Of a stretch of DNA of 42,825 bases, positions 2,083 to 37,523 are shown in pieces. The notes below the pieces were generated by a model. That model made no database searches. It worked only from the letters and a program-made list of their open reading frames with translations, and was not told the DNA's origin. The position numbers and the translations under genes are program-made. The stretch covers positions 1 through 42,825 of the forward strand of contig JACMNA010000153.1 of assembly GCA_014378765.1 (NCBI GenBank). Direction: 5' to 3'. Within the stretch, counting starts at the first letter, position 1, and each line of letters begins with the position of its first letter. This DNA comes from Bdellovibrio sp. GTDB lineage: Bacteria > Bdellovibrionota > Bdellovibrionia > Bdellovibrionales > Bdellovibrionaceae.

Positions 2083-2623
2083 CCATCAGGTTTGCGAAAA
2101 CGATTTCAGGAAACATATACTCAGTCGACGTTTCTTGTCCGGTTTGTTCGTTCTTTACCGGAAATTTGATATCGTTCGATCGCGATTTACGAGCTTCATC
2201 CATAACGCGTACAATTTCTTTGTATGGCACATCGGCATCAGGGCTTAGTTCGATTTTAAAAACTTCGGGGTGACTTTTTTTCACCGCTTGAAATTTAGCG
2301 TGTAAGGCCGGCATGTCGATTTGTTTTTCAGAATTCAGACCAACCAATTCTACTTTGGTTTGACCATTTTCAGTAACGATAATTCGAATGCCATCTTTTT
2401 TATTCATTTCGACGGCCACTTGGGCTGCTTTCGGATTATTTTCTTGCTTTGCAATTGCTTGCTGAACGACTTGGGGTAATTCAGTTTCAATAATCATCAT
2501 TTGCACGAACGCCGATGATACAAGAAGCACCGGCACTAGTTTAACCATAACCGCTAACAACGGAGCTAGATCGAGATCGAACTCCGAGTTATGATTAATT
2601 TTCATTTTAAATCTACGAGCCAT
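2075..2623 (-). CDS. ExbD/TolR-like protein lacking the proton-carrying Asp
   Basis: 182 residues, same layout as its neighbour: short N-terminus, one membrane segment (about 19-43), periplasmic C-terminal domain. The segment reads PLLAVMVKL where TolR has PLLDV, so the conserved Asp is Ala24, and a Lys (Lys28) lies in the membrane stretch. This copy probably cannot relay protons and may act only as a structural half of a heterodimer with the intact copy at 1579-2082. Start ATG has GGAGT 7 bases upstream. It lies 51 bases after the TolQ-like gene in the same leftward operon. Confidence 0.85.
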   Translation of the reverse strand: MARRFKMKINHNSEFDLDLAPLLAVMVKLVPVLLVSSAFVQMMIIETELPQVVQQAIAKQENNPKAAQVAVEMNKKDGIRIIVTENGQTKVELVGLNSEKQIDMPALHAKFQAVKKSHPEVFKIELSPDADVPYKEIVRVMDEARKSRSNDIKFPVKNEQTGQETSTEYMFPEIVFANLMDG

Positions 2624-19686: not shown

Positions 19687-21117
19687 CTATTCAGAAAAAT
19701 CTTTTACGTTGATCGAATACTTTCGAATTTTTCGTAAAAGCGTATTCTTCGGAATATTCGCTTGCGCGACCGTTTGATTGATTTTTCCTTTATTTGCTTT
19801 CAGCGCGCTCATAATAAAATCTTTTTCGGCCTGCTCTTTATAAATTTCAAAATCTAACGGGCCTGATAAGTTTTTATTTTGTGGTTGGCCGCCGAGCGTT
19901 CCTGCGGCCGTACTATCAACGGCTTTGCTGACGGGCACGCGGATTTGATCGGGTAAACTTGAGGTTGTCATAATCGAAGTTGATTCAACGATGAAAGCGC
20001 GTTCAATCACATTTTCAAGCTCACGAATATTTCCGGGCCAACGATATTTTTTCATAAGTTCTAAACATTCGGGCTCAAGGCTAAGGATAGTTTTATTATG
20101 CTCTTTAGAAAATTTTTGTAAAAAGGTTGTGGCTAAAACGGGAATATCATCGGGCCGCTCACGTAAAGGTGGAATAAATATTGGCATCACGTTCAGCCGA
20201 TAAAATAAGTCTTCCCGAAAGTCGCCGGTCTCCATCATCTTTTCTAAATTTCGATTGGTGGCGGCGATAATACGCGCATTTGTTTTTACTTCGCGGTTAC
20301 TTCCTACCGGCGTAAACTTTTTCTCTTGCAGGGCGCGCAGTAATTTAACCTGCATCTCGGGTTTTAATTCGCCGATTTCATCTAAGAAAAGAGTGCCATT
20401 ATTAGCAAGTTGAAACTTTCCGATTTTTCGCTCGATGGCGCCCGTGAAGGCCCCTTTTTCGTGGCCAAAAAATTCACTTTCCATTAGGTTTTCGGGGATT
20501 GCGCCGCAGTTGACGGCCACAAATGTACCGCTTTTCCGAGGCGAATTGAAATGGATTGCTTTGGCGACCAGTTCTTTACCTGTTCCATTTTCTCCGCGAA
20601 TAAGAACGGTCGTTTCTACCTTGCACAGTTTGTAAATAAGATTGAAGACTTCCTTCATTTTCGTGTTGTTACCCACGATTTCGCTATCGATGTCATCATC
20701 AAAAATAGGGTTTGAAGCCGTCAAGTTCGAAACCATTTCGTGCGCTTCGATACTTTTTTTAACGATGTCAGTTAGTTTTTCAGGACTAACTGGTTTTTCT
20801 AGGTAGTCGTAAGCCCCTTCTTTAATGGCGGTGACGGCATCATTCAAGTTTGAATGGGCAGTCATGATAACAACGAATGTTCTTGGGTCATGCTCTTTAA
20901 TTTGCGTAAGCGCTTGCAGGCCATCCATTTCGGGCATGCGAACGTCCATTAAAATTAAATCGTAAAATTGGGCTTTCACTTTGTCTAAAGCCTCGCGGCC
21001 GTTACTGGCCTCTTCAATTTCAAAATTGATTTGCATGTTGGTATTTTGTAAAATCGAGACGACCGATTTTCTTAACTCTAACTCGTCATCAACAATCAAA
21101 GTTTTTAATGTCATCAT
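19687..21117 (-). CDS. NtrC-family sigma54-dependent response regulator
   Basis: 476 residues: receiver (1-125, phosphorylated Asp58 in LILMDVRMP), AAA+ domain (about 150-385; Walker A GENGTGKE, complete GAFTGA loop, Walker B LFLDEIG) and C-terminal Fis-type helix-turn-helix (about 430-475). The GAFTGA loop contacts sigma54 and remodels the promoter complex. Ribosome site GGAGA precedes ATG. It lies 16 bases after the CHASE2 kinase gene, so the two probably form one two-component system. It is also a candidate activator for the sigma54 promoters at 32-42 kb, since nothing ties those to one activator. Confidence 0.92.
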   Translation of the reverse strand: MMTLKTLIVDDELELRKSVVSILQNTNMQINFEIEEASNGREALDKVKAQFYDLILMDVRMPEMDGLQALTQIKEHDPRTFVVIMTAHSNLNDAVTAIKEGAYDYLEKPVSPEKLTDIVKKSIEAHEMVSNLTASNPIFDDDIDSEIVGNNTKMKEVFNLIYKLCKVETTVLIRGENGTGKELVAKAIHFNSPRKSGTFVAVNCGAIPENLMESEFFGHEKGAFTGAIERKIGKFQLANNGTLFLDEIGELKPEMQVKLLRALQEKKFTPVGSNREVKTNARIIAATNRNLEKMMETGDFREDLFYRLNVMPIFIPPLRERPDDIPVLATTFLQKFSKEHNKTILSLEPECLELMKKYRWPGNIRELENVIERAFIVESTSIMTTSSLPDQIRVPVSKAVDSTAAGTLGGQPQNKNLSGPLDFEIYKEQAEKDFIMSALKANKGKINQTVAQANIPKNTLLRKIRKYSINVKDFSE

Positions 21118-21133
21118 ATCTTCTCCACGATCA

Positions 21134-22978
21134 TTACAAGACTCCTGCGGCTACTTCGTCAGTTTCTAGCGGAAGTCTTACAAAAAATGTTGTTCCTTTG
21201 CCCAGTTCAGATTGCAACGAAATACGACCCCCGTGCAATTCTATGAAGTATTTCACCAAATAAAGTCCTAGTCCAGTGCCCTTTGTTTTATGATCTTGCG
21301 ACTTGCCTCGTACAAATTTTTTCCAAACTTGATCTTGGTCTTCGGGCTGTATACCTTCGCCGCTGTCGGCAATCTCGACAAATACCTCAGTTTCGGATTC
21401 AAAAGATTTGATTTTAACGAACCCTTCATCGGGCGTGTATTTGATGGCGTTCTCGATGATATTGAGAAATACTTCGGTCATGAGCGTCACATCAAGTTCA
21501 ATCAAAAACATCGGCTCTAATGTCATTTCTAATTGAATTTTTTTAGATGTGGCCAAGGGCTTCAACCGGTCTACAACATTTTCAATAATGCCATTGATAT
21601 CGGCGGTTTCTTTTAAAATTTTGAATTCGCGCGATTCAACTCGTAGTACTTTTAGAATTGATTGAATATAGCGGTTTAGTTCTTCCGAGTAAATTTTAAG
21701 GCTAGAAAGATCACTATGTAGCTCGGGCGCAAGTTGGCTTTGGGTCAGTACCCGGTCAAGCACCGCCTGAATTTTAGCAATTGGAGTTTTAAGATCATGA
21801 CTGATTAAACTTACAAAATTATTTTTAAGTTGTTCCAGTTCCGCAAAGTAACTTTGTTCTTGTTGTAACTTCGAGTGGGCCTGTTCTATTTTTAACGCCT
21901 GATACCCAATAAATAAGACCCAGATCAAAATAAAAAGGCTAATTGAGCTGACGACGGGGACCCAAATCGCGAAGCTGTCAAAAATCCAGGCCGAAAAAGC
22001 CGCAACGGCGGTTGTCATCCAAACGAAGAAAAACAACGCTACCGTTTGCGGGTAGTGGGTAATCACTAAAACGGCCAAGAGGGTTAGTAAAAATAAAAAG
22101 AATGCGTAAACAAACCCCGACAATTTTTTTATAAAACTACGGCTAAGAATATTCTCGGTAATTTGTCCCCAGAACTCATGCCGCGACATTTGGCCCAACG
22201 GCGTTTGCAATTGCGAATTCAAAGATTTTTCTGAACCAATGATTACAATTTTATCCTTAAAAAAATCTTTGTTAAACTGAGGGTTCATCACGTCCGAGAC
22301 GCTGACTTCTTTAAATAAATTTGTGCCCTTGTAATTGATGTTAACCACCGTTGCCGCCGAATTTTTAGCTGGCAATCCGACTAACCGCTGTGCAATATTC
22401 GGCAACGTATCAGGACTTAAAAAAAGTCGGCGCGTTACGCCATCGTCATCTTTCAGGGCATCAACGTGGCCTAAGTTCGATCGATCAGGGCGTGTCGCCA
22501 GTGGTAAAGAAAGTTTTTCGGGCTCGCTTGAGTTTGTGGCCCAAAAGATTCGCTTATCTTTAAAAATAATAATTTCTTCAGAGGTAAGATGCACTTGCCC
22601 GATATTATCGCCCAAGTAAAGGGTTACTCCAATTCGGCGGGGGTTTTGTGCTAAAATCTTTGAAAGCACATCGACCCAAACTTTGCGGTCCCAATAAAAG
22701 CTGTCGCTTAAGTCTGAAAGTTCGTTGGTATTTATTAATGAACTCGTTTTAAGATCATAAATTTTTGTGAAGTCAGAAGTTTTAAGGGTGACTAGTACAA
22801 TCTCTTGCGTGGACTTTTGCGCGCCCCTAAGGCGAAAACGAATGTCATAGGTGCCGTTTTCGTCGAATTTAAGAAAAAAAAGAGCAAAAACCCAACAGAG
22901 CAGGGCTCTTGTCCAAAAACCCCGTTTTGAATAGATCCAGCGGATCCATACTGTCACTCGACTTAATGATCTTTTCAC
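21134..22978 (-). CDS. CHASE2-domain sensor histidine kinase
   Basis: About 614 residues. One N-terminal membrane segment (about 24-40), a CHASE2 periplasmic sensor (about 45-290), three further segments (about 290-365), then a coiled coil, HisKA (His394 in SLISHDLKTP) and HATPase_c (N box ENAIKYTP, G boxes DSGEGI and GTGLGLY). CHASE2 senses unknown envelope or environmental cues. The frame is open to a TTG at 22987; I use the GTG at 22978, though neither has a good ribosome site. It heads the operon with the NtrC-type regulator and is divergent from ribF, with 59 bases between the starts. Confidence 0.88.
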   Translation of the reverse strand: MKRSLSRVTVWIRWIYSKRGFWTRALLCWVFALFFLKFDENGTYDIRFRLRGAQKSTQEIVLVTLKTSDFTKIYDLKTSSLINTNELSDLSDSFYWDRKVWVDVLSKILAQNPRRIGVTLYLGDNIGQVHLTSEEIIIFKDKRIFWATNSSEPEKLSLPLATRPDRSNLGHVDALKDDDGVTRRLFLSPDTLPNIAQRLVGLPAKNSAATVVNINYKGTNLFKEVSVSDVMNPQFNKDFFKDKIVIIGSEKSLNSQLQTPLGQMSRHEFWGQITENILSRSFIKKLSGFVYAFFLFLLTLLAVLVITHYPQTVALFFFVWMTTAVAAFSAWIFDSFAIWVPVVSSISLFILIWVLFIGYQALKIEQAHSKLQQEQSYFAELEQLKNNFVSLISHDLKTPIAKIQAVLDRVLTQSQLAPELHSDLSSLKIYSEELNRYIQSILKVLRVESREFKILKETADINGIIENVVDRLKPLATSKKIQLEMTLEPMFLIELDVTLMTEVFLNIIENAIKYTPDEGFVKIKSFESETEVFVEIADSGEGIQPEDQDQVWKKFVRGKSQDHKTKGTGLGLYLVKYFIELHGGRISLQSELGKGTTFFVRLPLETDEVAAGVL

Positions 22979-23037
22979 GCAATGCAAAATAACGAATTTC
23001 AGTCGTTATTTCAACTGCTTAATAGGTAAAATAAGCC

Positions 23038-23970
23038 ATGGAATGGATTCGCTCACAAGATCAGGCCTTACCGCACTTTAAATCGTCGGTATTGACCATT
23101 GGAAATTTCGACGGTGTTCATCGTGGACACCAAAAGCTAATGAAGGAATTAATTACGCAGGCCCGTACAGACGAAGCGCCAAGTGTTGTGTGCACTTTTA
23201 GACCTCACCCCCGAACGGTGCTAAAACCCAGCGAGCCGTACGCACGCATGTTTGATTATCGCGATCAAGCAGAAGTCATGGCCCCGCTGGGAATTGATTA
23301 TTTAATTGAAGAAAAATTTAGTAAAGATTTTTCGTTGATGTCGGCCACTCAATTTATGGAAGACTATATCGAAAAAATATTTCACCCATTGCACCTTGTG
23401 ATTGGTTACGATTTTAATTTTGGTAAATCACGAGAAGGCAATGCTGATTTTCTTGAAGATTTTTGCAAACGGAAAAAATGGAAACTAACAATTGTTGGCG
23501 CTTACGAACAAGATGGGCAAATCGTATCGTCATCCCTTATTCGCAAGCTTCTTGAACATGGCGATTTAAAGAAAGCGGAAGAGTATTTAGGTCGACCTTT
23601 CTATCTGCGTGGCCCCGTTCGCCTCGGTTACCAGAGGGGTCGAACGCTCGGAGTGCCAACGGCCAACATCAGTCCCGAGATTGATTTTGTGCCTCGGCAG
23701 GGCGTTTATTTTTCTTGGGCTTACCTAAACGAAAAAAAATATCCATCCATTACCAACATCGGATACAACCCAACTTTCGAACAAGCCGACAGTTACCTGA
23801 AAGTGGAGACCCATTTGTTTAATTTTGAAGAAGACATTTACGGCGAGCATCTTAAAGTAGAACTTTGTCAATTTCACCGTGATGAAATTAAGTTTGCTTC
23901 TTTTGATTTACTTAAAACTCAAATCTATAAAGATTTGTCTCTTGGCAAAAGCTATTTTGGTATCGAATGA
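23038..23970 (+). CDS. ribF: Bifunctional riboflavin kinase/FAD synthetase RibF
   Basis: 310 residues. The N-terminal FAD synthetase half has GNFDGVHRGHQ (nucleotide-binding HxGH-type motif); the C-terminal riboflavin kinase half has GRTLGVPTANI and a NIGYNPTF motif. It converts riboflavin to FMN and FAD in the cytoplasm. Its stop overlaps the start of the next gene (ATGA), linking it to an AroE-like protein. Confidence 0.94.
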   Translation: MEWIRSQDQALPHFKSSVLTIGNFDGVHRGHQKLMKELITQARTDEAPSVVCTFRPHPRTVLKPSEPYARMFDYRDQAEVMAPLGIDYLIEEKFSKDFSLMSATQFMEDYIEKIFHPLHLVIGYDFNFGKSREGNADFLEDFCKRKKWKLTIVGAYEQDGQIVSSSLIRKLLEHGDLKKAEEYLGRPFYLRGPVRLGYQRGRTLGVPTANISPEIDFVPRQGVYFSWAYLNEKKYPSITNIGYNPTFEQADSYLKVETHLFNFEEDIYGEHLKVELCQFHRDEIKFASFDLLKTQIYKDLSLGKSYFGIE

Positions 23971-24725
23971 AAAAAACTGTATATGGCTTTTCTAAAATTG
24001 CCGCCGATTTAAGTGTGAAAGACCACCCGCAATTTAATGAAAAATTTGATTTTATTGCCAATGAAGATTTAACCGCAGCAGCAACATTGGCTCGCAATTT
24101 TGATTTTATTTTGCTGGGCGATGGAGATTATGAACAATTTAGACCACTGATTAAGGCTATCGGCTGGAAAATTAATCATTTAAGTGTCGCCGATTTAATT
24201 GTCCGCGAAGCTAATCATTATCGTCCAATGAACCTAGAGGCCGATTGCATTCTGCACGCAATTCAAACCCATATGGTTACGATGAGTACATCAACGACAG
24301 TTTTAGTTATTGGCTATTTTGATTTTGTTTTAAGTGTAGCCGCAAAACTTGCGCTGGCGGGGTTTTCAAAATTTATTATTTCGTTGGCGAATGATTCTCA
24401 ATTTACGATTATTAAAAAGCGGTTAGCTGAATTTATTTTTAATTTAGATATAAAATACGTTAGCTTGAATGAGCTCACGCAAATTCAACAGACCAGTTCA
24501 CTGTTAATCTCAAATCTCAGCGAGAAAGTGAATCAAGAAGCCTATGAGTCATTAACTTACTTTAATTTCCTGTCGGCCGGAGGGGTTTTCGTTGATGCGC
24601 ACTCGCAAAGTAATACGTCGTTAATCGAAGAAGCACGTCGGGCCGAGCTAAATGTCATTGAAGAAAGCGAAATTTTAACCCTAAAATTTAAAACCATGGT
24701 CGATTTATCCAAAAACCCTTCCTAG
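23967..24725 (+). CDS. Divergent shikimate dehydrogenase (AroE)-like protein
   Basis: 252 residues, cytoplasmic. Overall pattern resembles AroE: an N-terminal substrate-type half (start KKTVYGF...DLSVKDHPQF, where AroE has its GxPxxHSxSP loop), then a Rossmann-like half (VLVIGYFDFVLSVAAKLALAGFSKFIISLAND). The key AroE residues seem to be lost: no GAGGA glycine loop (GYFDF instead) and no clear catalytic Lys/Asp pair. The C-terminal half still has the pattern of the AroE end, including the position of the T.LL segment. It is probably not a working shikimate dehydrogenase. Translational coupling to ribF is the only context. Function unknown. Confidence 0.55.
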   Translation: MKKTVYGFSKIAADLSVKDHPQFNEKFDFIANEDLTAAATLARNFDFILLGDGDYEQFRPLIKAIGWKINHLSVADLIVREANHYRPMNLEADCILHAIQTHMVTMSTSTTVLVIGYFDFVLSVAAKLALAGFSKFIISLANDSQFTIIKKRLAEFIFNLDIKYVSLNELTQIQQTSSLLISNLSEKVNQEAYESLTYFNFLSAGGVFVDAHSQSNTSLIEEARRAELNVIEESEILTLKFKTMVDLSKNPS

Positions 24726-24765: not shown

Positions 24766-26469
24766 ATGTTGCCGAATAAATTGGGAGAAATATTAATCAA
24801 GCAGGGGCTCATCCGTGCGGACCAACTTCAAGCGGCAACGACTGAAGCTGAGCGCACAAAAAATCGGTTAGGGCCTATTTTAGTCAGCTTGGGCTTTTTA
24901 AAAGACTCACAAATTTTACGTGCATTAGAAAAACAATACGGAATGCCCGGAGTCGACGTTGCCCAATTCGAAATTGAACAATCGGTAACTACAATCATCA
25001 ATCGTGATTTTTGTGAAAAGCATTGCATAATGCCACTGTCTAAAGCGGGCGCCACGTTGGTGGTCGCATTTTCTGACCCTAGCAATTTGCAGGTTCGCGA
25101 TGATTTACGATATCTAACTAAATGTAAAATTCAACCGGTTGTTGCAACTGAAAACACAATAATGACCGCCATTGAAAAATATTACTCATTAACCACTGGA
25201 GATTTAGTAACCCAAGGTGAAGAGGCCGAAATTGAAACGCAGACGCTATCTACTAATGCCTCCGCGGTTGAAGTGGGAAACCCTTCTGGCGGTGATGCGC
25301 CGGTTGTTAAATTCGTTAACGGAATTTTAGTCGAGGCCATTCGGCGCCGCGCTTCTGATATTCATTTTGAGCCTTACGAAACTAAATTTAGAGTTAGATT
25401 TCGGGTCGACGGAGGGCTAATTGAAGCGGCCGCGCCGCCGTTGAATTCAGGTCCGGCAATTTGCTCGCGCATTAAAATTATGTCGAAAATGGACATCGCG
25501 GAAAAGCGCCGTCCCCAAGATGGCCGGCTTAAAATTAAATTAAACAAAGAAAATCGCGAGATGGATTTTCGGGTTAACTCGGTCCCCACAATGTGGGGCG
25601 AAAAAATTGTCATGCGCTTGCTAGATAAGAATACATTACAAACAGATATGACAAAGCTTGGATTTGAAGAAGAAGATTTAAAAATTTTTAAAGCCGCGAT
25701 TAGCTTACCGCAAGGTATGATTCTAATTACCGGGCCCACTGGCTCGGGTAAAACTTCGACAATTTATTCAGCGTTAACGACGCTTAATAAAACTGATACA
25801 AATATTAGTACGGCCGAAGATCCAATCGAGTTTAATTTAGAGGGTATTAATCAAGTGCAGATGAACAGTGAAATCGATCTGAACTTTTCGACGGCGTTGC
25901 GGGCATTCTTACGTCAAGATCCCGACGTTATTATGGTGGGCGAAATTCGTGACTTAGAGACCGCCGAGATATCTTTCAAGGCGGCATCGACGGGTCACAT
26001 GGTTGTAAGTACGCTTCATACCAACGATGCACCCGCAACCATTACGCGATTAACCGAAATGGGCATTGCCCCTTACTTAATAACATCGACGTTAAACTTA
26101 GTAGTCGCACAACGTCTTGTGGGACGCATCTGCGAAGCTTGTAAAGAAGCCATTCAGCTGCCGGAAGATACCTTATTAAATTTAGGAATTCCCAAAGTTG
26201 ATATACCGAGATTTCAAATTGCACGTGGCAAGGGTTGCCCCTCGTGCAATGGCACGGGGATCAAGGGCCGTATCGCTATTTTTGAATTAATGCCAATGAC
26301 CGAAAAAATTAAAGAAGCTATTTTAAGAAATGCCAGTAGTAGTGAGCTTCGTAGAATCTGCAGTCAGTCGGGCGTTCGTACTTTACGTCGAAGTGCGCTG
26401 TTAAAATTAGCGCGTGGACAAACAACGGTGGAAGAAGTGATGAACTCTTCGGTCAGGGATGATTTATGA
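24766..26469 (+). CDS. pilB: Type IV pilus assembly ATPase PilB
   Basis: 567 residues, PilB length. N-terminal MshEN/T2SSE_N domain (about 1-150, beginning LGEILIKQGLI), then the secretion ATPase: Walker A GPTGSGKTS at about residue 323, an Asp box with RQDPDVIMVGEIRD, His box GHMVVSTLHT, and the zinc-binding CxxC pairs (ICEAC near 455 and CPSC near 490). It powers pilus extension at the inner membrane. The ATG at 24766 lacks a clear ribosome site. The stop overlaps the next gene by 4 bases. Confidence 0.95.
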   Translation: MLPNKLGEILIKQGLIRADQLQAATTEAERTKNRLGPILVSLGFLKDSQILRALEKQYGMPGVDVAQFEIEQSVTTIINRDFCEKHCIMPLSKAGATLVVAFSDPSNLQVRDDLRYLTKCKIQPVVATENTIMTAIEKYYSLTTGDLVTQGEEAEIETQTLSTNASAVEVGNPSGGDAPVVKFVNGILVEAIRRRASDIHFEPYETKFRVRFRVDGGLIEAAAPPLNSGPAICSRIKIMSKMDIAEKRRPQDGRLKIKLNKENREMDFRVNSVPTMWGEKIVMRLLDKNTLQTDMTKLGFEEEDLKIFKAAISLPQGMILITGPTGSGKTSTIYSALTTLNKTDTNISTAEDPIEFNLEGINQVQMNSEIDLNFSTALRAFLRQDPDVIMVGEIRDLETAEISFKAASTGHMVVSTLHTNDAPATITRLTEMGIAPYLITSTLNLVVAQRLVGRICEACKEAIQLPEDTLLNLGIPKVDIPRFQIARGKGCPSCNGTGIKGRIAIFELMPMTEKIKEAILRNASSSELRRICSQSGVRTLRRSALLKLARGQTTVEEVMNSSVRDDL

Positions 26470-27488
26470 TTGAAACGCTATTGGACCAGTCAGTTCTACG
26501 GCAAGGCCACGAGATTTCTTTTATTCTCGGACATAAGATACTAGCAAAAACCAGCCAAGACTGGTTTGAATTGCAGGGCGAAGCTTTGAACGTTTCTGAT
26601 TGGGAAGATTTAAAAGATTTTTGTCTGCATTCAAATGAAAAAATACAGCTTGAAACCAAAGGGTTTGTGACCGGCCTCTATCAATCCGAAAAATATGCAT
26701 GGCGATTTTCTTTCGTAGAAAAAAAAGATTGTTTTAGGGCCTACTTGTCAGCCTTTAAAACCAGCGATGATCTACAGTCTGGAATTGAGTACCCATTATT
26801 TTGGGATTCAGTTAAAAAAGATAAAGGGTTATTTATTATCGGAGGCGAGCGCCGCCAGGGTAAATCGACCTTGCTGGGTGAAATTATAACCAACGTTCAA
26901 AACAATAAAATGTCGCTAACGGGAATTCATTCGGTTAATCAGCAGCAGAAATGGCCGCAACTAGATTCTATTGTGCATTTAGGGGCTGATTCGGTTGATT
27001 GGGAAAGCCAACATATTCTTTACGAAGGTCTCGAGCGAATTATTGTCGATTTTAATAATGTAAAAAATTGGAAAAAATGGATTGAGTTCGCCGAGCAAGG
27101 ACAATCAGTCTTTATTAGCGTGGGCCTTAATTCAATTACCACCTTATTGTACAAATTAGCTTCTGACTTAGATGAATCGATGATGAGTCGCTTTATTCAA
27201 GTATTTAACGGCGCCATTGTACAAAAGTTAGCATCGGCAAATAAAGTTGCGTTACATGAAATTTTAGTCTGCCGCGAAAAAGAAAAAAAGAACTTGCTTC
27301 GTTACTATGAGCAAAAACAAAATTTTCAATTACTGAACTTAACCGAGATCTCGACGGAAGCGTACCAAACCCTTAATCAGTCAATCTTACAAAGAATGAT
27401 TAGACGCAAATTAGATGTGCAAAGCGCATTTGCGGTTTCGGATGCTCCAGATGACCTTGACGCCCAACTAAAAAAGATGGGGCTTTAG
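26466..27488 (+). CDS. Degenerate PilT-like ATPase paralogue
   Basis: 340 residues, in the place of pilT. Walker A is kept (GERRQGKST, about residues 123-131). The other catalytic boxes are gone: IIVDFNN where PilT has the VGEMRD-type Walker B, and GQSVFISVGLN where the His box (GHLVFATLHT) should be. The C-terminus still ends in a PilT-like AFAVSDAPDDLDAQLKKMGL pattern. It can probably bind ATP but not hydrolyse it normally. Start overlaps pilB (ATGA); pilC follows without a gap. I infer a regulatory or structural subunit of the pilus motor; the true retraction ATPase must be elsewhere. Confidence 0.75.
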   Translation: MIETLLDQSVLRQGHEISFILGHKILAKTSQDWFELQGEALNVSDWEDLKDFCLHSNEKIQLETKGFVTGLYQSEKYAWRFSFVEKKDCFRAYLSAFKTSDDLQSGIEYPLFWDSVKKDKGLFIIGGERRQGKSTLLGEIITNVQNNKMSLTGIHSVNQQQKWPQLDSIVHLGADSVDWESQHILYEGLERIIVDFNNVKNWKKWIEFAEQGQSVFISVGLNSITTLLYKLASDLDESMMSRFIQVFNGAIVQKLASANKVALHEILVCREKEKKNLLRYYEQKQNFQLLNLTEISTEAYQTLNQSILQRMIRRKLDVQSAFAVSDAPDDLDAQLKKMGL

Positions 27489-28715
27489 ATGCCGGTTTTT
27501 AATTATCAGGCGCGATCCGTATCCGGCCGTATCACTCAAGGCAAGCTCGATGCGCGTGACGAAGCCGACGCACGAATCAAATTGCGATCCAAGCAATTGT
27601 TGCCGGTAAAAATCACGATGCAGGCTGCGGCCACCGATGGCAACGATTTAGAAAAATTAATCAAAGGTTTTTTTGAGACGCGAATTAAATCAAAGGATTT
27701 ACAACTTTTTACGCGTCAGTTTGCGACGTTAATTAATGCGGGTATTCAAATCGCAGATGCATTAAGGATATTATATGATGGCGCAACGAACCCACTTTTA
27801 AAGGAATCTTTACTGCAAATTAGATCTTCAATTGATACCGGAAAAAGACTGTCGGATTCAATGATGCAGCATCCGCGGGTTTTCGACCGCCTTTATTGCA
27901 ATATGATTCAGGCCGGAGAAGAGGCCGGCATGATTGATACGATTTTGTTAAGATTAGCGTCTTACATCGAAAAAAATGAAAAAATTAAAAATCAAGTTAA
28001 GGGTGCGCTGGTTATGCCGGCCGTTATTACCGTGGTTGCTTTTTGCGTGATTACCGGAATTATTGTTTTCGTAATCCCCAAGTTTCAGGGTTTTTATTCA
28101 AACTCTGGAAAAGCGCTTCCCTTTTTGACGCAATCCCTAGTTGATTTATCAGATTTACTTCGAAAGCATTGGTTATTATTAATTATTGCAGTAACCGGAT
28201 CGATTACTTCATTCATCTATTATATCAATACACCCGAAGGTAAAAAGCAGATCGATACTTTTATGATTAATGCGCCCTTATTTGGAGATATCATTCAGAA
28301 ATCAAGTGTGGCCCGCATGAGCCGCACCCTTTCGACCTTACTGTCGTCGGGGATTGGATTAATCGAAGCCATTGATATTGCTTCGCGTACGGCTGGCAAT
28401 TATGTCATTGAAAAGGCGTTAGCAAGTTGCCGCGAATCGGTGATGGTAGGTAAGCCTTTTAATGTTCCCTTATCGAAACAAAAAGAAATTCCCCAAATGG
28501 TCTCACAAATGGTTGCCGTCGGTGAGCAGTCTGGTGCGATCGATACAATGTTAGCAAAGGTAGCCGATTTTTATGAAGATGAAGTCGAAAACGCGGTTAA
28601 GGCCTTAACATCATTAATTGAGCCCTTAATGATGGTGATTTTGGGTGGAATTATTGCGGTAGTTTTGATTGCCATGTACTTACCGATTTTTGGGCTTGGC
28701 GATACAATGGGATGA
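27489..28715 (+). CDS. pilC: Type IV pilus inner-membrane platform PilC
   Basis: 408 residues, PilC/GspF family. Two repeated T2SSF domains (about 70-190 and 275-395), each with cytoplasmic helices and membrane segments at about 172-195, 225-245 and 375-400. Motifs FTRQFATLINAGI and the second-copy SRTLSTLLSSGI mark the repeat. It is the platform on which PilB acts. It abuts the PilT-like gene and overlaps pilS by 4 bases. Confidence 0.94.
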   Translation: MPVFNYQARSVSGRITQGKLDARDEADARIKLRSKQLLPVKITMQAAATDGNDLEKLIKGFFETRIKSKDLQLFTRQFATLINAGIQIADALRILYDGATNPLLKESLLQIRSSIDTGKRLSDSMMQHPRVFDRLYCNMIQAGEEAGMIDTILLRLASYIEKNEKIKNQVKGALVMPAVITVVAFCVITGIIVFVIPKFQGFYSNSGKALPFLTQSLVDLSDLLRKHWLLLIIAVTGSITSFIYYINTPEGKKQIDTFMINAPLFGDIIQKSSVARMSRTLSTLLSSGIGLIEAIDIASRTAGNYVIEKALASCRESVMVGKPFNVPLSKQKEIPQMVSQMVAVGEQSGAIDTMLAKVADFYEDEVENAVKALTSLIEPLMMVILGGIIAVVLIAMYLPIFGLGDTMG

Positions 28716-30271
28716 CGATGACACAAACTAAAGGCCTCAACTTTTTATTACAGGCGCAATCAAGAAAAAGTCTTCGTACTTTTATCTTATTTGCGTACTT
28801 TGCAATTTTTCAGATTTTGATTTTACTACAGAAGCCTTTCGTGCAATTAGACTTTGTTATAATTTTTTATGGATCATTTAGTTTGCTTTTCGCTCACCAT
28901 TTTTATTTGCATTACCAAAAAGATTATAAGCCCCAAGCGCTGTTGAATTTCTTTTCTTACTTTTTTGATTTCATCATAATGATTTATTTTATGAAGTCTT
29001 TTCCGCAACTTTCAAGTTTTTTATTAGTGCTGCAACTTTTTATGCTTTTTGTTGCTAGTTTTGAATTAAGCTTTGTTAGTTTGTGTGCCTTGGGCTTCTT
29101 AGCTTCTGTGGGCACTTCAGTTATCAACCTAACAAATTTTCAATCTGGTTCCGTGCAAAATTTACTTTCGCTAACCTTATTTAATCTGTCATATGTGGCC
29201 GTTATAGTAATTGCGGGTCAACTTAAAAACGATATTTATTCTATGCAAATCGATTTGACTCAAACGCGCAAAAAATGGAAATCACAAGCTGAATTTTCTA
29301 AAACCTTAATCGAAAAAATGCCATTGGGGCTCATCGTAGCGCAGGCTAATAGCCACGTGATCATGCAAAATTCATATTTAGATAAAAAAATTAAATTGAA
29401 TTTTGCCCAAATTAAAAATTTAGTTAGCCGCCAGAATAATCGGGGTACGAGCCAGCTTGATTATACCTACATGTCTCCGGGTACCGAGCCTAAAATTTTA
29501 GAAATCGAAAACGCCGAATATTTCGATGAAGATGTTGGCGAAGCCCTGTCGATTTATTTACTTAAAGATGTGACTGAACTGCGGCAACTCGAAAATGATC
29601 TTAAACAAAAAGATAAGTTAGCGACGATCGGCCAATTGGCGGCCGGAATTGCGCACGAAATTCGAAATCCGTTGGCGGGCATTAGCGGAAGTATTCAATT
29701 GTTGTCGCAAGATAATGACCATGTTGATCCAGACCAAAAAAAATTAATGAGTATAGTTTTGAAAGAAATTGATCGCCTTAATGATCTTATCACCGAATTT
29801 TTAGACTACGCTAAGCCAGAAAAAAAGCCCGACCAGCGAATCAATTTAAAAAGCTTAGCGGATGAGGTGATTCAGGTCGTAAAGTCTCATAAAGAGGTAT
29901 CAAGTACTTTACGGTGGGACGTGCATTTGACGCCTCAATTTGTTTTGGGTTACTCAGAAAAATTAAAACAAGCCCTGCTGAATATTATAATTAACGCTAT
30001 TCAAGCGGTTAAAAGTCGGCCCGATCCAGTTATTTTGATTTCACTAACAAATGATGAAAAAAATGTTATTCTTTCAGTTAAAGACAATGGTTCTGGAATT
30101 TCACCAGAAACGCAAAAAAGAATGTTTGATCCATTTCACACGACAAAGCCAAAAGGCACGGGCCTAGGCTTAGCGATTACGCATAAAATTTTAGATGCGC
30201 ACCAGGCGCAGATTATCGTGAACAGTGAAATCGACAAAGGAACTGAATTTAAAATTAAATTCCCGATCTAA
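28712..30271 (+). CDS. pilS: PilS-type membrane histidine kinase
   Basis: 519 residues. Five or six membrane segments in the first about 175 residues, a PAS-like region (about 190-290), then HisKA with GIAHEIRNPL (the phosphorylated His at about residue 313), and HATPase_c with NIIINAIQAV and GTGLGLA. The multi-pass N-terminus plus its place between pilC and pilR support PilS, which in Pseudomonas and Myxococcus senses pilin in the membrane. It overlaps pilC by 4 bases; pilR follows after 41 bases. Confidence 0.88.
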   Translation: MTMTQTKGLNFLLQAQSRKSLRTFILFAYFAIFQILILLQKPFVQLDFVIIFYGSFSLLFAHHFYLHYQKDYKPQALLNFFSYFFDFIIMIYFMKSFPQLSSFLLVLQLFMLFVASFELSFVSLCALGFLASVGTSVINLTNFQSGSVQNLLSLTLFNLSYVAVIVIAGQLKNDIYSMQIDLTQTRKKWKSQAEFSKTLIEKMPLGLIVAQANSHVIMQNSYLDKKIKLNFAQIKNLVSRQNNRGTSQLDYTYMSPGTEPKILEIENAEYFDEDVGEALSIYLLKDVTELRQLENDLKQKDKLATIGQLAAGIAHEIRNPLAGISGSIQLLSQDNDHVDPDQKKLMSIVLKEIDRLNDLITEFLDYAKPEKKPDQRINLKSLADEVIQVVKSHKEVSSTLRWDVHLTPQFVLGYSEKLKQALLNIIINAIQAVKSRPDPVILISLTNDEKNVILSVKDNGSGISPETQKRMFDPFHTTKPKGTGLGLAITHKILDAHQAQIIVNSEIDKGTEFKIKFPI

Positions 30272-30312: not shown

Positions 30313-31719
30313 ATGAAATCGCGAATACTAGTTGTTGATGACGAAGAATCAATACGCGAATTTTTAGAAATCATGTTGAAAAAAGAAGGTTACGAAGTGA
30401 CAACGGCCGAAGATGGCCTGCGCGCGAAAGACATTCTATCGAAAAAATCATTTGATATGGTTATCTCAGATATGCAAATGCCCAATATGACGGGGATTGA
30501 ATTACTGAAATACGTAAAAGAAAGCTATCCAGAATTGGTTTTTATGATGATCACGGCTTTTGGAACAACCGAGACCGCCGTTGATGCCATGAAAATGGGG
30601 GCTTATGATTACGTAACCAAGCCATTTAAGATTGACGAAGTTCGCCTTAATATTGCCAATGCCCTGCGATCTAAAAATTTAGAAACCGAAGTGCGCGTTC
30701 TGAAAAAAGAATTAGTTAAAGAATATTCATTTCAGAATATGATTGGTAATTCGGCTGCCATGCATACGATTTTTGACTTAGTGAAGCGCGTATCGCAGGC
30801 GCCAACAAATGTCTTAATCACGGGAGAATCAGGTACCGGTAAAGAAGTGGTCGCTAAGGCCATTCATTATAATGGTCCCCTTAAAGATCGTCCGTTTGTA
30901 ACTATCAATTGCGGCGCTATTCCTGAAAATTTAATGGAATCAGAAATGTTCGGCCACAAAAAAGGCTCCTTCACGGGGGCTATTGCCGACAAATCTGGTT
31001 TATTTGAGGTTGCAGATGGCGGAACATTATTTTTAGATGAAGTGGGCGAGTTACCCGTTTCAATTCAGGTTAAATTATTACGTGCCATCCAAGAACGCGT
31101 AATCCGTCGCGTGGGAGCCACGGACGACATGAAAGTAGAAGTTCGTATTATTGCCGCCACAAACCGTAATTTAGAAGATATGGTTTCGAAGGGCACGTTC
31201 CGACAAGATTTATTTTATCGCCTTAACGTCATTGGCATTCGAACGCCGTCGCTGCGTGAGCGCAGTGATGACATTCCGTTGTTAGCTAATTTTTTCTTGC
31301 GCAAGTATAATGAAAAATTGAATAAGGCTATTGCGATGATATCAAATGAGGCGATGGAAATATTAAAAAAGTATAATTACCCCGGAAACGTTCGTGAATT
31401 AGAAAATATGATCGAGCGAACTGTGGCCCTAGAAGCCGGCTCAACGATCTTGCCAGAGTCTTTGCCACCAATGGTTAATACGACATCCGGTCGAAAAATG
31501 GCTTCTAGTAATGAAATTGAAATTGGCGATGAAGGCTTAGACCTTGATAAAGTAATGGGTCAAATTGAAAAAGAGCTATTGGTGAAAGCTATACACTCGG
31601 CGGGTGGTATTAAGAAAAAAGCCGCTAAGCTTTTGCATATCTCATTTCGATCAATGCGCTACCGAATTGAAAAGTACAATTTGGGGGTTGTTGGTGAAGA
31701 TGAACTTGATGATGAATAG
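30313..31719 (+). CDS. pilR: PilR-type sigma54-dependent response regulator
   Basis: 468 residues: receiver (Asp53 in MVISDMQMP), AAA+ domain (about 140-380; Walker A GESGTGKE, Walker B LFLDEVG) and C-terminal Fis-type HTH. The sigma54 loop reads GSFTGA, a variant also found in PilR, and FGHKKGSFTGAIADKSG matches PilR closely. Partner of PilS; its target would normally be pilA, which is not next to it here. Ribosome site GAGGAG lies before the ATG. A hairpin without a U tract covers its stop (31702-31730). Confidence 0.9.
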   Translation: MKSRILVVDDEESIREFLEIMLKKEGYEVTTAEDGLRAKDILSKKSFDMVISDMQMPNMTGIELLKYVKESYPELVFMMITAFGTTETAVDAMKMGAYDYVTKPFKIDEVRLNIANALRSKNLETEVRVLKKELVKEYSFQNMIGNSAAMHTIFDLVKRVSQAPTNVLITGESGTGKEVVAKAIHYNGPLKDRPFVTINCGAIPENLMESEMFGHKKGSFTGAIADKSGLFEVADGGTLFLDEVGELPVSIQVKLLRAIQERVIRRVGATDDMKVEVRIIAATNRNLEDMVSKGTFRQDLFYRLNVIGIRTPSLRERSDDIPLLANFFLRKYNEKLNKAIAMISNEAMEILKKYNYPGNVRELENMIERTVALEAGSTILPESLPPMVNTTSGRKMASSNEIEIGDEGLDLDKVMGQIEKELLVKAIHSAGGIKKKAAKLLHISFRSMRYRIEKYNLGVVGEDELDDE

Positions 31720-36086: not shown

Positions 36087-37523
36087 ATGTTAAAAAAAGC
36101 AAAAATACTAATTATTGACGATGATCGCGACGTACAAGAGCTTATTACAAGCTTTTTTAAGGTAAGAAATTACGAAGTGTTACCTTATGATGATGCGCAA
36201 AAAGCCCTCGAGGATTTAAGCCAACACAAAATCAGTTGTGATGTGATAATTACCGATTTGATGTTACCAGGCATCTCGGGAATTGAATTCACTCAGCGCA
36301 TGAAAGCATTAGGTAACGGCACGCCAATTATTTTAATCACGGCCAATAAAAAAGTTGAAGTGGCCGTCGAGGCCATTGGCTCGGGTGCTTACGACTTCGT
36401 GGTAAAGCCGCTGCACTTTCCGCAATTGCTTGTATCAGTCGAACGCGCTTTGTATTTAACGCGTGTACAGGAAGAAAACTCGACTTTAAAAACGGTTGTT
36501 CAGCTGCAAGAGGGGCCCACTAGCCTTGAAGGTATCGTTGGAAAAAGTCAGGGCATTAAAAACGCGCTCGATTTGGCGCGCCGAGTTTCGAAATCTACGG
36601 CCAATATTTTAATTACGGGCGAAAGCGGAACAGGTAAAGAAGTCATTGCGAAGGCAATTCATGCTATGGGCGCAAGGAAGAAAGCTCCATTTATTGCCAT
36701 TAACTGCTCGGCTATTCCAGAAAACTTACTGGAGTCAGAATTATTTGGTCACGCCAAGGGTTCATTTACGGGTGCTTCCGATAAAAAAGTTGGTTTGTTT
36801 GAAGAGGCTGAAGGCGGAACTTTATTTTTAGATGAAATTGGTGATCTGAATTTACCGCTGCAGGCAAAGTTATTGCGAGTATTACAAGAACGTAAAATTA
36901 AACGGATTGGTGAAAACCAATACCGTCCGGTGAACGCGCGAATCTTATCGGCTACTCACAAGAACTTACGTCATGAAATTGTCGCCAAAAAATTTCGTGA
37001 GGATTTATTTTTTAGATTGAACGTTATTCCCATTTGGATTCCGCCTTTACGTGAGCGCAAGGAAGATATTTTGCCATTGGCTGAATTCTTCTTACGTAAG
37101 TTTTCGGCGTTGAATAACACGCGTCTTAAGCAATTTTCAAAAGATGCTTTAGAATATTTGATGAACAATTCATGGCCGGGCAATGTGCGTGAGCTAGAAA
37201 ACACAATTGAGCGCGCCGTGGTGTTATCAAGTTCAGATTTGATTCGCCTGGATGATGTCGTATCGATTGGTCACGAAGAAATGAGTGAAAAGTCTGACTC
37301 AGCCTTTAATTTTACCGGCAGTTCGCAATCTAAAATTCTAACGGTTGAAGAATTGGTAAATAAATACGTTCAGCACGTGTTGCAGCTTAACCATGGCGTA
37401 AAAGAAAAGACGGCCAGAGATTTACAAATTGATCGTAAAACGTTGTATCGTCGTCTGCGGGAAATTGAACATGATGAAAGTCACGCGGGAAACGGTAATG
37501 GCGTAGCTTCAGCGCTAAATTAA
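36087..37523 (+). CDS. Third NtrC-type sigma54 activator
   Basis: 478 residues: receiver (Asp57 in IITDLMLPG), AAA+ domain (about 145-385; Walker A GESGTGKE, GSFTGA loop, Walker B LFLDEIG, RxDLF-type sensor region) and Fis-type HTH (about 420-460, with ARDLQIDRKTLYRRLR). It can bind DNA and drive sigma54 open-complex formation. Ribosome site AAGGGGAG precedes the ATG. It is in the middle of the sigma54 block and has no histidine kinase beside it, so it is the first candidate to activate the local promoters, possibly fed by the Hpt/receiver genes. A two-way terminator follows. Confidence 0.92.
   Translation: MLKKAKILIIDDDRDVQELITSFFKVRNYEVLPYDDAQKALEDLSQHKISCDVIITDLMLPGISGIEFTQRMKALGNGTPIILITANKKVEVAVEAIGSGAYDFVVKPLHFPQLLVSVERALYLTRVQEENSTLKTVVQLQEGPTSLEGIVGKSQGIKNALDLARRVSKSTANILITGESGTGKEVIAKAIHAMGARKKAPFIAINCSAIPENLLESELFGHAKGSFTGASDKKVGLFEEAEGGTLFLDEIGDLNLPLQAKLLRVLQERKIKRIGENQYRPVNARILSATHKNLRHEIVAKKFREDLFFRLNVIPIWIPPLRERKEDILPLAEFFLRKFSALNNTRLKQFSKDALEYLMNNSWPGNVRELENTIERAVVLSSSDLIRLDDVVSIGHEEMSEKSDSAFNFTGSSQSKILTVEELVNKYVQHVLQLNHGVKEKTARDLQIDRKTLYRRLREIEHDESHAGNGNGVASALN

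Follow-up and report, generated by a model that had tools for sequence, protein, structure and literature searches.

A PilT-like gene in the pilB–pilC slot of the Bdellovibrio family has lost its catalytic boxes and retains a conserved C-terminal tail

In the window, the whole 42,825-nucleotide stretch of Bdellovibrio sp. DNA that we analysed, the gene between pilB and pilC (26466..27488, + strand) encodes a motor-dead PilT of 340 residues, here called X, the orthologue of Bdellovibrio PilT1. Across this family of predatory bacteria X is under strong purifying selection, which is most marked in the final 40 amino acids, and it probably serves the pilus machine by docking or braking and not as a motor. 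The gene itself is known, since PilT1 of Bdellovibrio bacteriovorus (Bd1510) was already published as a non-canonical PilT (PMC4237445). What appears to be new, from comparison of sequences, is the history of the gene across the order, the recurrent decay in which the tail is retained, and a caveat on the published deletion, none of which was found in the literature searched. That search, made outside subscription journals, also returned no paper with both 'PilT' and 'pseudo-ATPase'.

Locus, predicted fold and motif boxes of X

The ORF of X begins with ATG and is a genuine gene of a pilB-X-pilC-pilS-pilR operon: it overlaps the pilB stop by four bases, and the pilC start at 27489 abuts its end. 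The upstream neighbor, the extension ATPase PilB (MshEN and T2SSE domains; 24766..26469, +), scores 772 bits against TIGR02538 (cutoff 675.65 bits), and the inner-membrane platform protein PilC (27489..28715, +) matches T2SSF with E 6e-65. Next come a pilS-like sensor histidine kinase (28712..30271, +) and a pilR-like sigma-54 response regulator (30313..31719, +), ORFs in the same order as in relatives and named from position and sequence alone, without a profile. Directly upstream of pilB lies a 252-aa ORF (23967-24725) with a weak Rossmann-like stretch by eye and no match in Pfam or NCBIfam. Two further sigma-54 response regulators are found close to the operon (19687-21117, −; 36087-37523, +), the first of them adjoining a histidine kinase (21134-22987, −) in an arrangement that recurs in several related loci.

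By predicted fold and by place, X is a PilT, given a confident model (AF2, pLDDT 90.6), PilT4 and PilU as the nearest solved structures in Foldseek (E 8.9e-22 and 9.7e-20), and the operon slot. As in the PilT/PilU family, the predicted fold combines a PAS-like N-domain, placed by the model's secondary structure at about residues 1-105 (26466..26780, +), with a RecA-like domain. Geobacter PilT4 (PDB 6ojx, 6ojy, 5zfq), the best structural match, also aligns with X in the tail (MNQSL...DPDEL), but it is an active motor with 16-18% identity to X, and the sequence match is weak (E 4e-4). X had no significant match in Pfam and reached 27 bits against TIGR01420 (PilT/PilU family), below the curated cutoff of 319.1, compared with 465.7 bits for an intact slot PilT (locus L113).

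Alignment against intact PilTs located the boxes. Walker A is present as GERRQGKST (residues 127-135; 26844..26870, +), of which GERRQGKS fits the family pattern GxxxxGK[ST]. SVNQQ replaces EDPIE at the position of the Asp box (26931..26945, +), QSVFISVGL replaces HLVFATLHT at that of the His box (27102..27128, +), and KEKKNLLRY stands in the AIRNLIREG column, where the AIRNLIRE motif is gone. In the Walker B column, RxDPDxxxxGELRD of intact PilTs has become YEGLERIIVDF-NN; a Walker-B-like strand, RIIVDFN (27036..27056, +), survives with its hydrophobic IIVD195 and acidic end D195, and only the catalytic GE is missing. These comparisons bear out the loss of the Walker B/Asp box and His box reported in an earlier note on this DNA, and an alignment of orthologues, which the note had proposed, showed the Asp box, His box and catalytic Glu of Walker B to be lost across the family. 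The note's description 'only Walker A kept' is correct in that Walker A is present and the boxes are gone, but is a slight overstatement in view of the strand ending in D195.

PilU (PDB 9n32), an accessory PilT paralogue with the fold seen in X, differs in that it keeps Walker A and B, is an ATPase, and has some 30 additional residues at its C-terminus (PMC12607626, PMC6762196), a disordered extension (PMC12607626). X has neither an intact Walker B nor this extension and ends with its tail at residue 340. It resembles Bdellovibrio PilT1, likewise non-canonical, in occupying the same pilB-pilC slot followed by pilS and pilR, in having the tail and no catalytic boxes, and in the presence of a canonical PilT2 elsewhere (PMC4237445). 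PilT1 has, however, lost Walker A (GPGEAGQVW), which is retained in the window's genus. There, G132 and K133 are invariant and residue 134 is S or T in all 13 members, whose proteins are 38-76% identical to that of the window; at this divergence the motif pattern is not due to chance. Because G132, K133 and D195 are all among the 61 of 340 columns of X that are invariant in the 13 genus genomes, nucleotide binding without hydrolysis is plausible in this genus.

Ancestry, distribution and paralogues

Matches to X were found in 57 of 61 sampled genomes of the family, which is a single clade with 100% support in a tree of PilB and PilC, and gene order around X was identical wherever the operon was assembled. 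All sampled genera are without the catalytic boxes, and neither the Asp box nor the His box is kept by any family member examined. In contrast, where the slot was compared in further families of the order, and in one more from the class (L099-L117), its gene encodes a PilT of 353-356 aa with the same tail and predicted fold but with every box intact in 17 aligned rows. The sequences thus give good support to descent of X from the slot retraction motor PilT found across the rest of the order. That outgroup families share the gene order seen in the family supports the note's placing of X in the ancestral pilT slot. Origin from PilT2 was considered and rejected, as the tail of X is common to slot PilTs and does not match PilT2.

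On the PilB + PilC tree, box decay requires three changes: in the family, in G090, and in a group made up of G121, G122, G092 and G120. We infer that the motor decayed three times independently, a count that is an estimate from a quick tree with some long branches. The decay in the family is not recent, as intact boxes in near relatives would have implied, and a recent pseudogene is ruled out by dN/dS together with the family-wide absence of the boxes.

Within the family, losses go further in some lineages. GK[ST] is retained in 11 of 20 genera and lost in 9; one genus outside the 11 keeps the Lys and not the preceding Gly, and genus g6, taken to be Bdellovibrio itself, is among those that lost the motif. 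In genera g5, g10 and g2, X is 208-249 aa long and has no N-domain. The PilT fold is predicted even for such forms: a 248-aa example gave a pLDDT of 92.2 and matched the C-terminal domain of Aquifex PilT. In genus g4, pilC comes straight after pilB, and X was not found elsewhere; since this genus lives without X, the role of X is dispensable. When PilB and PilC of g4 were searched for a hint of the partner of X, 4 and 5 columns had changed, vs. 0-4 and 0-7 in control clades, and the PilC changes did not stand out. In genus g5 (L042 and L043, and G005 in the search), pilB and X share a reading frame, with a single TAG between them (PilB ...VKDT-stop-N-VKDF...). The 820-aa open frames found by the search had suggested a PilB-X fusion, which this in-frame TAG excludes.

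The note had also predicted a true PilT elsewhere in the genome, and one was found in the same genome (G000:C71:2647-3720), scoring 480.9 bits against TIGR01420. A canonical PilT2 lies away from the slot in all 17 family genomes tested and elsewhere in the other decayed lineages as well. Ten genomes of four genera of family f9 (g42, g46, g57, g58) gave no match of PilT2 grade; their best match scores like an intact slot PilT, with boxes checked in L116 only. Many other families, including outgroups such as G061, G067 and G141, carry a third PilT paralogue besides PilT2 and the slot PilT, vs. one canonical PilT per family member searched with PilT2.

Selection on X and its C-terminal tail

In the closest pairs, dN/dS of X is 0.009-0.035, like that of PilC, and X is therefore no pseudogene; in several wider pairs synonymous sites are saturated. 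Compared with intact slot PilTs, X is most conserved in its C-terminal tail, residues 301-340 (QTLNQSILQRMIRRKLDVQSAFAVSDAPDDLDAQLKKMGL; 27366..27485, +). In 35-column windows, we compared the identity of X to intact slot PilTs with the identity among the slot PilTs themselves. The last window gave 0.53 vs. 0.60 (ratio 0.89), while the median ratio over all windows of X was 0.27 and the best window outside the tail reached 0.45. Independently decayed genes of family f9 showed the same trend (tail 0.78 vs. median 0.22), and PilT2 showed the reverse (tail 0.35 vs. 0.74). After each decay, then, conservation of the last 35-40 or so residues remains close to that in working PilTs, including in forms that have no N-domain. 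Since the tail is not unusually conserved among working PilTs, the fact that it survives in X points to a function of its own.

The tail is present in all 20 genera, including the 9 without GK[ST]. The note's view that nucleotide binding still matters seems to hold in the window's genus, but selection does not act most strongly on Walker A. The dead PilTs found in nature, graded from full length down to 208 aa, make the tail a candidate contact with the pilus machine and bear on the coordination of opposing pilus motors at PilC, for which a 2019 structural study had no PilT-PilC co-structure (PMC6858323).

Published pilT1 genetics and possible roles

Deletion of pilT1 in B. bacteriovorus is mild and partly rescues deletion of pilT2 (PMC4237445). 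The biofilm left was 92.5% for the pilT2 deletion vs. 50.2% for the double mutant, with 35.4% for wild type and 27.9% for the pilT1 mutant. Visible pili of the pilT1 mutant were 8.2% vs. 22.3% by EM, yet 33.4% vs. 27.0% by immunofluorescence, and PilA levels were alike in the mutants (PMC4237445). In host-independent strains, bd1509-1512 and the bd3852 pilT drop together (PMC3818213).

The published deletion primers match exactly in X of one g6 genome (G037, L030 1486-2529), at 1607-1624 (−) and 2434-2450 (+), which is why we take g6 to be Bdellovibrio. Judging from these primer positions, the deletion appears to span about residue 47 to 316 of 347, leaving the first ~46 and the last 31 residues, and the latter make up most of the conserved tail. 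This suggests that the deletion was not clean, and the mild phenotype is worth rechecking.

The best reading, we infer, is a regulatory or structural role. According to the reading we favor, to which we give roughly even confidence, X is a former PilT turned pseudo-ATPase subunit, docked by its tail on PilC or the PilT2 ring as a clutch or brake on the pilus motor. The distribution shows that X lost catalysis in the family ancestor while a canonical PilT2 remained elsewhere, and purifying selection has maintained it, presumably as a pseudo-ATPase subunit of the type IV pilus machine. Its working part is most likely the C-terminal helical tail, for which PilC and the PilT2 ring are the candidate docking sites, and the P-loop in the window's genus probably binds nucleotide without hydrolyzing it. 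X would sit at the motor site without driving it and so restrain pilus movement until PilT2 acts. A brake or clutch is favored because the published genetics fit an element that opposes PilT2, although the rescue in the double mutant weighs less, given that it comes from a single study, that its authors offer a protease effect as an alternative (PMC4237445), and that the tail was seemingly left in place. More tentatively, an ex-motor may repeatedly have been made into a motor-less docking part, shedding catalysis, nucleotide binding and the N-domain lineage by lineage and keeping the slot-specific tail, with the P-loop serving as a nucleotide-sensing clutch on PilC in the window's genus.

X might instead be an obligate adaptor, a dead PilT ring that couples active PilT2 to PilC, for which there is a strong precedent in Vibrio cholerae, where an ATP-dead PilT allows PilU to drive retraction: PilT altered in Walker A/B remains compatible with PilU-dependent function, and PilU does not work if PilT is missing (PMC6762196). 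The retained tail and the slot next to pilC agree with such coupling, but under this reading pilT1 deletion should resemble pilT2 deletion, which it did not, and genus g4 has PilT2 and no X. Both objections lose weight if the active part is the tail that the published deletion seems to have left in place; even so, an adaptor seems unlikely. We regard as distinctly unlikely a role in extension or signalling, in which X would join PilB or the PilS/PilR branch and tune assembly or expression rather than retraction. Genomes with X do have it together with pilB, pilS and pilR, and the pilT1 mutant does differ in its visible pili, but the mutants had comparable PilA levels, and the fold and tail of X are those of a retraction ATPase.

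Could X still be a slow ATPase, using the P-loop, D195 and substituted catalytic residues? Neither Walker A nor the strand ending in Asp varies within the genus, but the family-wide absence of the Asp box, catalytic Glu and His box, with GK[ST] lost in nearly half of the genera, makes hydrolysis improbable. Least credible, and highly improbable, is a functionless gene in decay, even though losses are graded from the boxes to Walker A, to the N-domain and, in g4, to the whole gene. It is already contradicted by purifying selection (dN/dS about 0.01-0.035 in the closest pairs), and, in addition, no disrupted copy of X was seen in the family, the fold is predicted with confidence and the tail is near-invariant.
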